Under the pieces are notes generated by a model that saw only the letters and a program-made list of their open reading frames with translations, was not told the origin of the DNA and did no database searches. 64,000 nucleotides of DNA from an uncultured Lachnospira sp. GTDB lineage: Bacteria > Bacillota > Clostridia > Lachnospirales > Lachnospiraceae. Positions 22,997 through 32,877 of the stretch are shown in pieces. Position numbers and translations under genes: made by a program. Location of the stretch: the NCBI GenBank assembly GCA_944381165.1, contig CALWKC010000007.1:29656-93655 (forward strand), written 5' to 3'. The stretch's first letter is position 1. Each line of letters starts with the position of its first letter.

Positions 22997-23126
22997 AAAG
23001 AGTTCGCTTGCGAACTCTTTCGCGAGGCGCGGATTTGTAAGAATAATTACCTTTCCGCGCCTCTGCGATCATGCGGAGCATTTTTATTCTATAGGAAGTT
23101 CAGAGAACTTTCCTATAGAATAAAAA
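22997..23126. repeat. Block of three consecutive hairpins, intergenic
   Basis: The 409-bp gap between the spore-coat genes and the radical-SAM gene holds three inverted repeats. H1 (22997-23020) is a perfect 10-bp stem with a CTTG loop. H2 (23024-23063) pairs GAGGCGCGGA with TCCGCGCCTC. H3 (23081-23126) is a 21-22-bp near-perfect repeat centred on AGTTCAGAGAACT. The U runs lie on the wrong side for simple termination by H3. Part of H1/H2 recurs at 32837-32877. Confidence 0.7.
23003..23043 (+). repeat. 41-bp dispersed repeat, copy A
   Basis: This 41-bp segment contains TTCGCGAGGCGCGGATT and matches the segment at 32837-32877 at 35 of 41 positions without gaps, in the same orientation. Both copies are intergenic. 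Confidence 0.75.
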
Positions 23127-23129
23127 GCG

Positions 23130-23184
23130 TTTACAAACATATGTTTGTATGTTATTATATAAACATATCAAGAACATATGTTTG
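23130..23184 (+). promoter_or_regulatory. SOS-type promoter with two LexA-like boxes
   Basis: TTTACA (23130-23135) and TATTAT (23153-23158) are 17 bp apart. The perfect 16-bp palindrome ACAAACATATGTTTGT (23133-23148) covers the -35 and spacer, and a second box, GAACATATGTTTG (23172-23184), lies just past the expected transcription start. The cores AAAC-N4-GTTT and GAAC-N4-GTTT resemble the Firmicute LexA box (GAAC-N4-GTTY). Confidence 0.7.
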
Positions 23185-23225
23185 TAAAATATGGCAAATT
23201 TATAAAAAGGCGGTGTTATTCATAT

Positions 23226-24719
23226 ATGATTATTCAGGAGAATATGCAATTAATGGAAAAGCTTTCGATTTTAGGCAATGCAGCAAAGTTTGACGTCTCA
23301 TGCAGTTCCAGCGGCGTTGAAAAGCACAACAACGGCGCCGGTATAGGAAATTCCAAAGCCTGCGGCATATGCCACAGTTTTTCCGCTGACGGCAGATGTA
23401 TTTCTCTTCTCAAAATTTTATATACAAATGAATGTATCTTCGACTGCCGTTACTGCATCAACCGCTCCTCAAACGATGTTGTTCGGACAAGCTTTACTCC
23501 CGAAGAGGTCTGTACTCTCACTATCGAATTTTACCGCCGCAATTATATAGAAGGCCTGTTTCTAAGCTCCGGCATTCTTCACAGCCCCGATTATACGATG
23601 TCTCAGCTTGTCGAGACTGTGCGCCTGCTGCGCACCAAATATCATTTCGGCGGTTATATCCACCTCAAGGCAATACCCGGAGCCTCCGGGGATTTAATTG
23701 AGGCTGCCGGGTGGTATGCTGACAGAATGAGCGTAAATCTTGAGCTTCCTACGGCGGAAGGTCTTAAAAATCTTGCTCCTCACAAGAGCCGCAAGGCTAT
23801 CCTCACGCCGATGCGTCAGATCCGGAACGGAATATATCACAACAGCGGACGGCCACTCATTTCCGCTGTGAATGACAGCCCGTCTGCTTATATCTCCGGC
23901 AGCAGCTTCAATTCTGACGAAAATCTCAACAGCGCAACACGCAAACCTGATACCGGTACTGTCTCCGACATAACCGCAGGAAAAATCACACATCAAAAAA
24001 ATCTGCCGTCAGCGCGCTCTAAGAAGCTTTTTGTACCTGCCGGTCAGAGCACACAGATGATTATCGGAGCAACTCCCGAGAGCGACTACCATATTATGAC
24101 TGTCGCCGAAGCTCTGTACGACAAATATAATTTAAAGAGGGTATACTATTCGGCATTTGTAAACGTCAACCACGACGATACTCTTCCTGTTCAGTCTGAT
24201 AACAGCGATGTTCCTCTTCTGCGCGAACACAGGCTGTACCAAGCAGACTGGCTTATGCGCTTTTACGGGTTTAAATCCTGCGAGCTTCTGTCACAGGAAC
24301 GTCCGAATTTTAACGTACTTCTCGACCCCAAGTGCGACTGGGCGCTAAGGCATCTTGAGCATTTTCCCGTTGAAATTAACCGCGCCGACTACTACACCCT
24401 GCTGCGCGTTCCGGGAATAGGAGTCAATTCAGCAAAAAGAATTGTACGCGCCAGGCGTCAGTCCAAGCTTGATTTTTCTGATATAAAAAAAATGGGGGTT
24501 GTCCTGAAGCGGGCACTGTATTTTATCACCTGTCAGGGCCGCATGATGTACAACACTCCGATAGAAGAAAACTATATAACTAACAATCTTATAGGCAGCG
24601 ACTGGAAAAAGACATATGATATAGCACACCACAACAGTTACAGACAGCTTTCGCTTTTTGATGATTTTAATGTAAGCACTGACACTGCTGCCTCGATTAT
24701 AAAAGCAGAACAATCCTGA
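23226..24719 (+). CDS. Radical SAM DNA modification/repair-type protein (TIGR03916-like)
   Basis: The 497-residue protein has a radical-SAM cluster motif CIFDCRYC (Cx3Cx2C) within NECIFDCRYCINR, an N-terminal FDVSCSSSG and CGICHSFSADGRC region with extra cysteines, and a helix-hairpin-helix near the C-terminus (VPGIGVNSAKRIVRARR) expected to contact DNA. This combination and the neighbouring gene match the pair modelled as TIGR03916/TIGR03915, predicted to act in DNA modification or repair and sometimes joined to uracil-DNA glycosylase domains. A low-complexity insert (about 225-275) separates the core from the HhH part. The start is placed at 23226 because the first ATG of the frame lies inside the downstream LexA-like box; an AAAGGCGG site is 12 bases upstream. 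Biochemical activity is unknown. Confidence 0.85.
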   Translation: MIIQENMQLMEKLSILGNAAKFDVSCSSSGVEKHNNGAGIGNSKACGICHSFSADGRCISLLKILYTNECIFDCRYCINRSSNDVVRTSFTPEEVCTLTIEFYRRNYIEGLFLSSGILHSPDYTMSQLVETVRLLRTKYHFGGYIHLKAIPGASGDLIEAAGWYADRMSVNLELPTAEGLKNLAPHKSRKAILTPMRQIRNGIYHNSGRPLISAVNDSPSAYISGSSFNSDENLNSATRKPDTGTVSDITAGKITHQKNLPSARSKKLFVPAGQSTQMIIGATPESDYHIMTVAEALYDKYNLKRVYYSAFVNVNHDDTLPVQSDNSDVPLLREHRLYQADWLMRFYGFKSCELLSQERPNFNVLLDPKCDWALRHLEHFPVEINRADYYTLLRVPGIGVNSAKRIVRARRQSKLDFSDIKKMGVVLKRALYFITCQGRMMYNTPIEENYITNNLIGSDWKKTYDIAHHNSYRQLSLFDDFNVSTDTAASIIKAEQS

Positions 24720-24775
24720 ATCTGAGCCGGCAGAATGCTTTTATTTGTATTTTGAGAAAAGGAATTTAAAAAAAA

Positions 24776-25597
24776 ATGAACAATTTTCATGACAACAGTT
24801 CTTCAGACAACAGCACAAACATCATTAAAAATATCTATCTGTGCGACGGTACCACAGAAGGAATCTTCACCGCCATATACCGTGCGTGGGCTGACGGAAC
24901 AAACCGCACCGATGTGCGAATAAAAGGCAGCTGCGATACACTGTCGTTTTTTGAAAATTATATTGAGACAAAGACCGATTACAACCTTGCCGAAAAGGTA
25001 TGTCAAAGCATAAAACATAAGCTTTCAGAAAATATATACTTTTATATTTACCGGGCCTCGCTGTCCTTCAATCCCGACAGAGCCTCTTACATATACAGCT
25101 TTTTGCAAAAAGCATTCAGAAACGGGCCTTCTATAATCAATGCGCTCTCCGATAATGATGTGATGAAGCTGTTTGAACTGGACAGACAGGTAGGCCGCGA
25201 AGCTCACACCCATCTTGAATTTGTGCGTTTTGAAGAATTGGAAAACGGCGTGCTCGCATGCAGAATTAACCCTAAAAGCAATGTTATTCCCCTTATAACA
25301 GAACATTTTTCAGACCGCCTGCACACCGAAAACTGGATTATACTTGATACCGGACGCAGTTTTGCAGCCGTGCACAGAGCTCACAGCGCTCCTTTTTTCT
25401 GCGCTCTTTCTGATGAACAGCTCACAGCTTTTTCAGGTTTTTCAGAGAAGGAAGAGAATTTTAAGAAATTATGGAAGACATTTTTTGAGACAATAGCAAT
25501 CAAGGAGCGCGTAAATCCGTCACTGCAGCGCACCATGATGCCTTTAAGATACCGGAAATACATGAACGCAGAATGTCCAAACCCACGTTTACCGTGA
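24776..25597 (+). CDS. DNA-metabolism partner protein (TIGR03915/DUF4130-like)
   Basis: The 273-residue protein begins after a Ser/Asn-rich leader with NIYLCDGTTEGIFTAIYRAW, and has the conserved VGREAHTHLEFVRFEELENG and HFSDRLHTENWIILDTGR stretches of the family that always accompanies the radical-SAM protein above. It is thought to act with that enzyme on DNA; no catalytic mechanism is established. The ATG follows AGGAA. It lies 56 bp behind the radical-SAM gene and so should share its SOS-type promoter. A hairpin overlaps the stop codon. Confidence 0.82.
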   Translation: MNNFHDNSSSDNSTNIIKNIYLCDGTTEGIFTAIYRAWADGTNRTDVRIKGSCDTLSFFENYIETKTDYNLAEKVCQSIKHKLSENIYFYIYRASLSFNPDRASYIYSFLQKAFRNGPSIINALSDNDVMKLFELDRQVGREAHTHLEFVRFEELENGVLACRINPKSNVIPLITEHFSDRLHTENWIILDTGRSFAAVHRAHSAPFFCALSDEQLTAFSGFSEKEENFKKLWKTFFETIAIKERVNPSLQRTMMPLRYRKYMNAECPNPRLP

Positions 25598-25610
25598 ATT
25601 TGGACATTTT
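25574..25610 (+). terminator. Terminator of the radical-SAM operon
   Basis: TGTCCAAACCCACG pairs with CGTGAATTTGGACA (one mismatched pair region) and is followed by four T residues. The hairpin spans the end of the coding sequence. Confidence 0.5.
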
Positions 25611-25654
25611 CCGCTCAACAATCCGGCAACAGAATGCTTTCTTTAAGTACAGCG

Positions 25655-28522: not shown

Positions 28523-30574
28523 TTAAGTTTCTGCTTCCTCATCCTTTGGCATTTTGCTGTTCTTAAATGCCTGTGCCGCTTCAACAATCGAGTCCTTAAT
28601 ATCATCTGACAGCGTCTTATTCGTCTCAAGCTGATTTAAAATATCAGAATAATTCAGACGGAATTCAGAAAGCAGCTCATTCTGAAACGGTTTAACCTGC
28701 TTAACATCCAGGTCGCTGAAAATGTGAGCGTTTGCACAAACTAATGTTACAACCTGCTCCGCCATGCTCATCGGATAACCAAGAGGCTGTTTTAACAGCT
28801 CCATAAGCGCCTTGCCGTGAGCAAGCTGCTTCTTTGTGCTCTCGTCCAAATCCGAAGAAAACTGTGTGAACACTTCCATTTCTCTGTACTGAGCCAAATC
28901 AATACGAATACTTCCTGCCGCCTTCTTCATCGCCTTAGTCTGGGCAGCACCGCCCACACGCGATACTGAAAGGCCTACATTAACAGCCGGTCTCTGACCT
29001 GCAAAAAACAGCTCACTTTCCAGAAAAATCTGACCGTCTGTAATAGAAATTACATTTGTAGGAATATATGCCGATACGTCTCCTGCCTGAGTCTCAATAA
29101 TAGGCAGAGCCGTAATCGAGCCGCCACCCGCCTCCGGCGTAAGACGGCTTGAGCGTTCCAGCAGTCTTGAATGAAGATAAAATACATCACCCGGATACGC
29201 CTCTCGTCCCGGAGACCGTTCCAGCAGCAGCGAAATAGCACGGTATGCAACCGCGTGCTTTGAAAGGTCATCATATACAATCAATACATCCTTGCCCTGA
29301 TACATAAAGTACTCTGCAAGCGCCGTTCCCGAATAAGGAGCAATATACTGTAAAGGCGCCGGGTCAGAGGCTGTTGCCGACACGATTATGGTGTATTCCA
29401 TCGCCCCGCTTTTCTTCAGCGTATTAACCAGCTTGGCAATAGTAGATGCCTTCTGTCCGATAGCCACATAAATACATATGACATCCTTACCCTTCTGGTT
29501 AATAATTGTGTCCATAGCAATAGATGTCTTACCTGTCTGACGGTCTCCGATAATGAGCTCTCTCTGACCGCGTCCTATCGGAAACATTGAATCTATTGAT
29601 AGAATACCTGTCTCCATAGGAACTGATACCGACTTTCTGTCAACAATGCTCGGCGCAGGAAATTCAATCGGTCTGAAGCCCGCAGACTCAATGTCACCCT
29701 GACCGTCAAGCGGAGCTCCCAGCGCGTCTACTATTCTTCCCTTAAATGCGTCGCCTACCGGAATACCAGCCATCTTGCCTGTGCGGACAACTCTTGTACC
29801 CTCTTTAATCTCTGTGTCCCTGCCGAAAAGTATAACACCTATCTCATCTCTTCTGACATCCTGCACCATACCCTTTACGCCGCAGTCAAATACAACAATC
29901 TCGCCGTAAAACGCATGGTCAATTCCGTCAACGTTGGCAATTCCGTCGCCGACCCAATTAACAACACCTATTTCCTTATTCTTGGCCTCAAGCTCGAAAT
30001 CAGCAATCTCGCTTCTGAGAATTGAAATAATTCCCTCTTCGCTGAATGTAGTATTTCTTGAAGAATTTACCGCCCTGGCAATAGTATTCCGGAGCTGTTC
30101 AATTCTTCCGCGCTCACTCCAGTCATACTCCTTTGTGCCTACTCTTAAAATAAACCCGCTGTTTAAAGATTTATCCTCTTTACACTCAAGCTTAATATCA
30201 GAACTATGAAATTCCTTTTCAAGAAAATTCTTTATTCCCTCAAGCTGTTCGTCAGTAGGAGGCGTAACATAGAGTAACTGTGCCTGATCAGCCTCTGACT
30301 GAGGTGTTTTTCCGAGTTCTTCATAAGCATCACAAATCTCATCGAACAGCCTGAAATCCATGTTGTCACATAAAATTTTCAAAAAATCTCTTATTTCCTT
30401 AGGAAATACTCTGTCAATAACCAGGTGTTTTTTCTCAACAGACACGGTCGGATTTTCAAATTCCGAGCGAACCTGCGGCACAGCTTCAAGAATATCTTTA
30501 ACCTGCAAAAGCAATTCCTTTGGAGTTTCCGTTTTGCGCAATCCTGACGCATAATCAATAGCTGCCTGTGTCAC
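28523..30574 (-). CDS. atpA: Fused ATP synthase delta-alpha subunit (AtpH-AtpA)
   Basis: One uninterrupted 683-residue reading frame holds a complete delta-like domain (1 to about 175) followed by a complete alpha subunit (about 176-683). The delta part shows the family C-terminal pattern [20 protein letters not shown]. The alpha part opens with [17 protein letters not shown], where alpha subunits normally start, and has [15 protein letters not shown], the P-loop [13 protein letters not shown] and the [18 protein letters not shown] stretch. Delta normally binds the N-termini of the three alpha subunits at the top of F1, so a fusion would place one delta per alpha unless processed. The start is a GTG overlapping the atpF stop, with AGGTGA upstream. 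No separate atpH exists in the operon. Confidence 0.93.
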
Positions 30575-32836: not shown

Positions 32837-32877
32837 TTCGCCCGCAAACTCCTTCGCGAGGCGCGGATTCCTAAGAA
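32837..32877 (+). repeat. 41-bp dispersed repeat, copy B
   Basis: This copy matches 23003-23043 at 35 of 41 positions. It lies just behind the hemerythrin stop codon and four bases before the terminator. The H2 hairpin partner seen beside copy A is absent here. Confidence 0.75.

Follow-up and report, generated by a model that had tools for sequence, protein, structure and literature searches.

What controls a pair of genes whose products look like a radical S-adenosylmethionine (SAM) enzyme and a partner protein of the DUF4130 family, and on what would such a pair act? The question is raised by a locus in the stretch of DNA analysed here (the window, 64 kb, part of contig C7), which comes from the genome of an uncultured Lachnospira sp. 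(2.57 Mb in 60 contigs). The two genes, TIGR03916 followed by TIGR03915, lie behind a promoter that carries two palindromes of the LexA type and, as judged from the sequence, the pair is almost certainly under LexA control. Our preferred reading of the locus as a whole, to which we give a probability of about 0.55, is that of a LexA-repressed two-gene SOS operon encoding a radical-SAM repair machine with a DUF4130 partner.

Two LexA-type boxes at the promoter of the gene pair

The pair is preceded by a sigma-70-type promoter, TTTACA-17-TATTAT (23130-23158, plus strand), with the -35 hexamer TTTACA at 23130-23135 and the -10 hexamer TATTAT at 23153-23158, separated by a spacer of 17 bp; 10 of the 12 consensus bases are present and a TG stands before the -10. 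Box 1, ACAAACATATGTTTGT (23133-23148), is a 16-bp palindrome that overlaps half of the -35 hexamer and the greater part of the spacer, and box 2, AAGAACATATGTTTGT (23170-23185), also a 16-bp palindrome, is located just past the expected transcription start. Promoter-like sites as a class are not above chance in this region (5, against 6.0 in shuffles).

The TIGR03916 gene, which encodes a radical SAM protein with a helix-hairpin-helix (HHH), extends on the plus strand from 23226 to 24719. Its start codon agrees with the family alignment, and a possible ribosome-binding site for it, AAGGCGGTG, can be read at 23207-23215 on the same strand. A longer open reading frame starting at 23178 was rejected, since it would begin inside box 2 and the alignment fits 23226. 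After a gap of 56 bp follows the partner gene (24776-25597, plus strand), encoding a 273-aa protein of TIGR03915/PF13566 (DUF4130). The first gene product scores 665.5 bits against TIGR03916 (cut-off 343.5; profile positions 1-415 of 415), and the second 250.2 bits against TIGR03915 (cut-off 112.25) and 181.7 bits against PF13566 (cut-off 27). A sequence-only reading had placed the two boxes, the promoter and the genes at these positions and had named the genes TIGR03916 and TIGR03915; all of them were located where it put them, and both names are right, as the scores exceed the curated cut-offs.

In the same genome, GAACAAATGTTY-like sites precede lexA, recA and uvrB. From these promoters we built a genome-specific LexA matrix, based on five boxes picked by eye (two before lexA, two before recA and one before uvrB) and including no box from the TIGR03916/TIGR03915 locus. 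With this matrix, box 2 ranks first in the 64-kb window (17.5 bits) and box 1 second (16.0 bits), the next site reaching 14.3 bits; the five training boxes score 17.1-20.2 bits on their own matrix. In addition, the full 16-mer with up to three mismatches has 3 places where 0.54 are expected, a number that none of 100 shuffles reaches.

Conservation of the boxes and change of operator type

The boxes recur at related loci. The wider set comprised the best 80 of 589 confirmed related loci together with the window; two loci (L020 and L085) were dropped, leaving 79 with enough upstream sequence. In 54 of these loci, the 315 bp preceding TIGR03916 hold the highest-scoring Gram-positive-type box, unequalled elsewhere in the stretch (3.2 loci expected by position alone), and 56 of the 79 upstream regions reach p <= 0.05 against 100 Markov shuffles each. 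Among the window and its closest relatives (L021-L036), the box is the unique best match in 16 of 17; the exception is a Lachnospiraceae locus (L032), in which another site of the stretch scores at least as high. Within the family set, formed by the best-scoring 30 loci of the 87 genomes over the cut-off (from 150 family genomes; L119 repeats L030), the box before TIGR03916 is the unique best match in all 30 loci, with 2.3 expected. Thus, two further expectations of the sequence-only reading are borne out: the boxes are present at orthologous promoters (30/30 family loci; 16/17 of the window and its closest relatives), and the lexA and recA promoters of the genome carry, by the genome-specific matrix, the same type of box as the promoter of the pair.

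LexA motifs vary from one bacterial class to another, and operators other than the Gram-positive type were sought as well. Betaproteobacteria share the LexA motif type of E. coli. The published motifs are GTTC-N7-GTTC for Alphaproteobacteria, CTAA-N5-TTAG and GGA-N5-TCC for Bacteroidetes and CTGT-N8-ACAG for E. coli (PMC8565304; this and the other papers discussed are cited from partial text). Seven alphaproteobacterial plasmid loci and two betaproteobacterial (Caballeronia) loci were picked by hand and are not a random sample. GAAC-N7-GAAC stands 17-39 bp before the TIGR03916 gene in all seven alphaproteobacterial loci, with a single additional match elsewhere in the stretch, in one of them (L139), and in both Caballeronia loci the only CTGT-N8-ACAG of the stretch is located just upstream of the gene. 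Since other LexA motifs precede the pair in these proteobacterial loci, it appears to be reached by at least three operator types.

A fixed core of two genes with an optional glycosylase

The TIGR03916 family, which we take to be that of COG4277, is found paired with DUF4130 in several bacterial phyla. TIGR03916 and TIGR03915 are each over their cut-off in 87 of the 150 family genomes, and the two lists contain the same genomes; weak or fragment matches to TIGR03916 alone occur in four genomes (G025, G072, G074 and G142) and to TIGR03915 alone in two (G073 and G136). A DUF4130 gene lies downstream of TIGR03916 in 72 of 80 loci. Four others (L044, L059, L080 and L095) show no DUF4130 downstream, their sequence ending at or soon after the TIGR03916 gene.

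In the window and in the 72 DUF4130 loci the partner protein stands alone, with a length of 243-305 aa. The arrangement in proteobacterial plasmids is a different one: in 7 of 9 such loci the annotation gives a 'UdgX family uracil-DNA binding protein' after TIGR03916, and the two unannotated ones hold a long frame with GEQPG and a KRRLH-type loop. UdgX itself has been described with the loop KRRIH and the motif GEQPG (PMC10359453). Two UdgX-fusion proteins scanned for domains (from Caballeronia and Phaeobacter) contain TIGR03915 plus TIGR03914. The partner protein of the window shows DUF4130 only, with no domain of uracil-DNA glycosylase (UDG) or UdgX in NCBIfam and Pfam scans, and the two UDG-superfamily genes of the genome sit on other contigs. 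As UdgX is confined to some loci, the fixed core would consist of the radical SAM protein and DUF4130, the glycosylase being optional.

Phage records gave 10 matches, namely eight 'Bacteriophage sp.' entries, unannotated and of human faecal origin, and two records of 240 kb that bear the title Acinetobacter phage. Membership in an anti-phage defence family was considered and rejected, there being no PADLOC match at E <= 0.01.

Features of the two proteins

The three cysteines expected of a radical SAM protein (C70, C74 and C77) are invariant in 56 of 56 aligned TIGR03916 rows, and so are C26, C49, H50 and C58. The HHH region matches a ComEA-related protein by sequence profile (E 3.8e-4). The structure model has a pLDDT of 81, with a stretch of low confidence at about 213-264, and the best structural matches among the 50 shown are radical-SAM folds (HydE, ThiH, HydG and others; TMq 0.23-0.36). 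The spore photoproduct lyase (SplB) family appears neither among the NCBIfam and Pfam matches at E <= 0.001 nor among those 50 structural matches, and in this respect the pair differs from SplB.

The structure model of the DUF4130 protein (pLDDT 88.8) weakly resembles DHH phosphoesterases, which we regard as a new lead. In a viral structure library (BFVD) it has 7 matches at E <= 0.001, of which 3 carry the name of a DHH protein, and its weak matches in the PDB include a DHH-domain protein (E 8.1e-4) and RecJ chains (E 0.0037 and worse). Seven residues of DUF4130 are invariant (R151, P166, F178, R181, D191, R245 and N247), and no DHH triplet is found among them. A comparison of the DUF4130 profile with solved structures led nowhere (best E 0.046). 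A DHH fold for DUF4130 was not found in literature titles and the beginnings of abstracts, which is no proof that none has been described.

Relation to previous work

That LexA controls such a pair has been predicted in print before. In Clostridium acetobutylicum, LexA sites at CAC3343-CAC3344 have been footprinted and the control of the pair predicted (PMC3828012); that case concerns another species, is supported by footprinting and stress microarrays, and its family identity rests on the product name. Likewise, a COG1573-COG4277 operon is reported to be SOS-regulated in Bacteroidetes, with Verrucomicrobia and Alphaproteobacteria also cited (PMC8565304). The likeness to our locus lies in an SOS-regulated two-gene operon, and the TIGR03916 and UdgX-fusion operons found here fit the COG4277 identity; the partner there, however, is a uracil-DNA glycosylase, whereas our locus has a stand-alone DUF4130 and a LexA motif of GAAC-N4-GTTY type. 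Given that LexA/SOS control of these pairs has been published (PMC3828012; PMC8565304), our finding is a sound case of an already known kind, and SOS control of the pair is well supported, not new.

Less is in print about function. DUF4130 has been predicted to be a mutagenesis-related enzyme linked to SplB-like radical SAM photolyases and UDGs (PMC3765255), in a text whose available part yielded no LexA-site or structural analysis of it. Radical SAM proteins under LexA are known from Streptomyces (vnz_31145; PMC9380542) and from a Gram-positive core regulon (PMC7739468); in the available text of both their family is not named, and they may be SplB-like instead of TIGR03916. The available part of PMC12548448 holds no relevant gene, the UdgX papers PMC10359453 and PMC10776899 make no mention of the words radical, operon or fused, and searches under TIGR03916, UdgX with radical SAM and UdgX with SOS response returned no literature. 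The chemistry of the pair had been called unknown in the sequence-only reading, and this description holds, the substrate not being named in the literature found.

A model of the operon and its alternatives

The model proposed here starts from the observed boxes and their conservation, the pairing of the genes, their domain content and the invariant residues. In line with established LexA biology, LexA dimers bound to both boxes would block the promoter, and DNA damage would free it through RecA-stimulated cleavage of LexA. Once made, the TIGR03916 protein is expected to hold a [4Fe-4S] cluster on C70, C74 and C77 and to cleave SAM to a 5'-deoxyadenosyl radical, while its C-terminal HHH would contact DNA; the N-terminal C26, C49, H50 and C58 may serve as ligands of a second metal site or provide a hydrogen donor. 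DUF4130, the standing partner with a DHH/RecJ-like outline, would most likely bind or present a single-stranded or damaged stretch, so that the radical could reverse or unlink a replication-stalling lesion of a base or sugar. UdgX, fused to DUF4130 in Proteobacteria, may add covalent capture of uracil or abasic sites. A role of the pair in DNA repair or tolerance is likely, and the chances that the radical reverses a lesion directly, while DUF4130 holds the DNA as its partner, seem to us evenly balanced.

Several observations weigh against this reading. On the side of regulation, neither bare core is enriched in the genome over its reversed-pattern control (RAACRWAYGTTY, 12 forward matches against 18; RAACATATGTTY, 3 forward places, 2 of them at this locus, against 3), and box 1, in which an A replaces the G of both outer half-sites, has a lower score than any of the five training boxes. 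Of the 79 loci in the wider set, 25 do not have the box as their unique best match; they are assigned by record title to 11 Bacteroidota, 6 Bacillota (including L032) and 8 others; an exact CTAA-N5-TTAG stands upstream in 1 of the 11 Bacteroidota loci (L077) and GGA-N5-TCC in none of them. On the side of function, four of the 80 loci (L049, L057, L094 and L096) have no DUF4130 despite at least 1.9 kb of downstream sequence, and the first gene product stays below the Pfam cut-offs for Radical_SAM (22.8 bits; cut-off 29.5) and HHH_3 (26.8 bits; cut-off 27). The best PDB match of the DUF4130 model, PAP phosphatase 8a8k, which we take to be a DHH protein, is weak (E 2.5e-5, TMq 0.41, root-mean-square deviation 7.7), and a scan of 58 DUF4130 members against Pfam listed 25 families at E <= 1, none of them DHH or DHHA1. 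Finally, nothing beyond the HHH, the fusion to UdgX and the mode of regulation speaks for DNA as the substrate.

The figures on the boxes bear also on whether the palindromes are LexA sites at all, or arose by chance or serve another regulator. The loose consensus GAAC-N4-GTTY is found twice in the window against 3.44 expected, which is not above chance, and this count, like the bare cores, was dropped as evidence for LexA sites; together with a box 1 slightly off consensus, these results would suit such an explanation. We nevertheless hold it to be exceedingly improbable given that all 30 family loci have the site, that other LexA motifs occur in Proteobacteria and that a footprint has been published for C. 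acetobutylicum (PMC3828012).

As for the function of an SOS operon at this place, it might modify DNA instead of repairing it, attaching a group to bases as a means of tolerance or protection. The NCBIfam family name, 'DNA modification/repair', points in that direction, radical SAM enzymes often add groups, and in the same genome box-like cores are also found before a D12 DNA methylase gene and before a gene beside a GmrSD_N protein. Still, what appears to be damage control by LexA motifs of several types fits repair better than a standing marking, and this, along with the lack of a PADLOC match at E <= 0.01, makes modification unlikely. Rather improbable, too, is that the pair forms an accessory system of uracil or abasic-site base-excision repair, the published proposal for the COG1573-COG4277 operon (PMC8565304), despite the UdgX that comes after or is fused to DUF4130 in proteobacterial operons. 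DUF4130 is stand-alone in the window and in 72 loci and the UDG-superfamily genes of the genome lie on other contigs, so that uracil excision would not be a fixed part of the system. An action on RNA or another non-DNA target that is useful during DNA damage could be argued from structural matches that include HydE, ThiH, MiaB (with RNA) and other non-DNA enzymes, and from the capacity of HHH motifs to bind RNA; DNA is the target suggested by the UdgX fusion and by control of the SOS type, and we consider a non-DNA one very unlikely.

The preferred reading of a LexA-repressed repair operon can be carried further, in a form that is speculative and which we regard as doubtful. DUF4130 could have a DHH/RecJ fold from which the DHH metal site was lost, the protein having been remodelled into one half of a radical-SAM lesion-reversal enzyme, the half that holds the DNA. 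The pair could then be a widespread means of direct repair (of crosslinks, sugar lesions or trapped protein-DNA adducts) to which LexA was rewired each time its motif changed, with UdgX joining later in Proteobacteria, perhaps since the pair removes UdgX-DNA adducts. To our knowledge, SplB is the one well-established example of DNA repair by a radical SAM enzyme; a second case, if true, would close a genuine gap in the field of bacterial DNA repair. The regulation offers a way in, through the agents that induce the pair and the lesions that pile up without it.

Other features of the locus, the genome and the window

Directly 5' of the promoter lies a long, near-perfect hairpin (23081-23127; the fold of 23078-23130 has -25.6 kcal/mol, z -9.5). 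Its 34-bp core, the near-perfect palindrome TTCTATAGGAAGTTC...TTCCTATAGAA at 23087-23120, occurs at 20 genomic places, against 0 for the reversed-pattern control; by its look this hairpin is probably a dispersed repeat and not part of the LexA switch. Further 5', an inverted repeat GAGTTCGC-TT-GCGAACTC is found at 23000-23017; it has a one-mismatch cousin at 32837-32851 and, by eye, a comparable stretch before recA (L005). At the other end, a stable hairpin runs across the end of the second gene (25570-25610, plus strand; the fold of 25565-25625 has -20.5 kcal/mol, z -7.8). It is absent from the terminator-scan list of the region and possibly marks the end of the operon.

Elsewhere in the genome, lexA is divergent from a small LysM gene, presumably in a YneA-like place, with several LexA-type half-palindromes in between (L001, 2106-2340). 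The sole other genomic AAACATATGTTT found is at L004, 1501-1512 (G000:C13:62108), between two minus-strand genes; the product of the second may resemble a manganese-catalase or a coat protein. At another locus (L014, 1501-1544; G000:C35:6374-6417), two boxes of the LexA type, 32 bp apart, precede a gene that matches Sigma70_r2 weakly and is itself followed by one for a GmrSD_N protein; this locus is possibly an SOS-controlled sigma-factor/defence pair. Single LexA-type cores, which could be due to chance, stand about 90 bp before the D12 adenine methylase gene (L019, 1501; G000:C59:3732) and about 145 bp before a NOV_C gene (L008, 1501; G000:C6:27961), whose neighbour resembles a DNA methylase by eye. 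In the window itself, a 683-aa frame on the minus strand (28523-30574) joins the delta (OSCP) and alpha subunits of ATP synthase in a single fusion (PF00213, then PF02874, PF00006 and PF00306).

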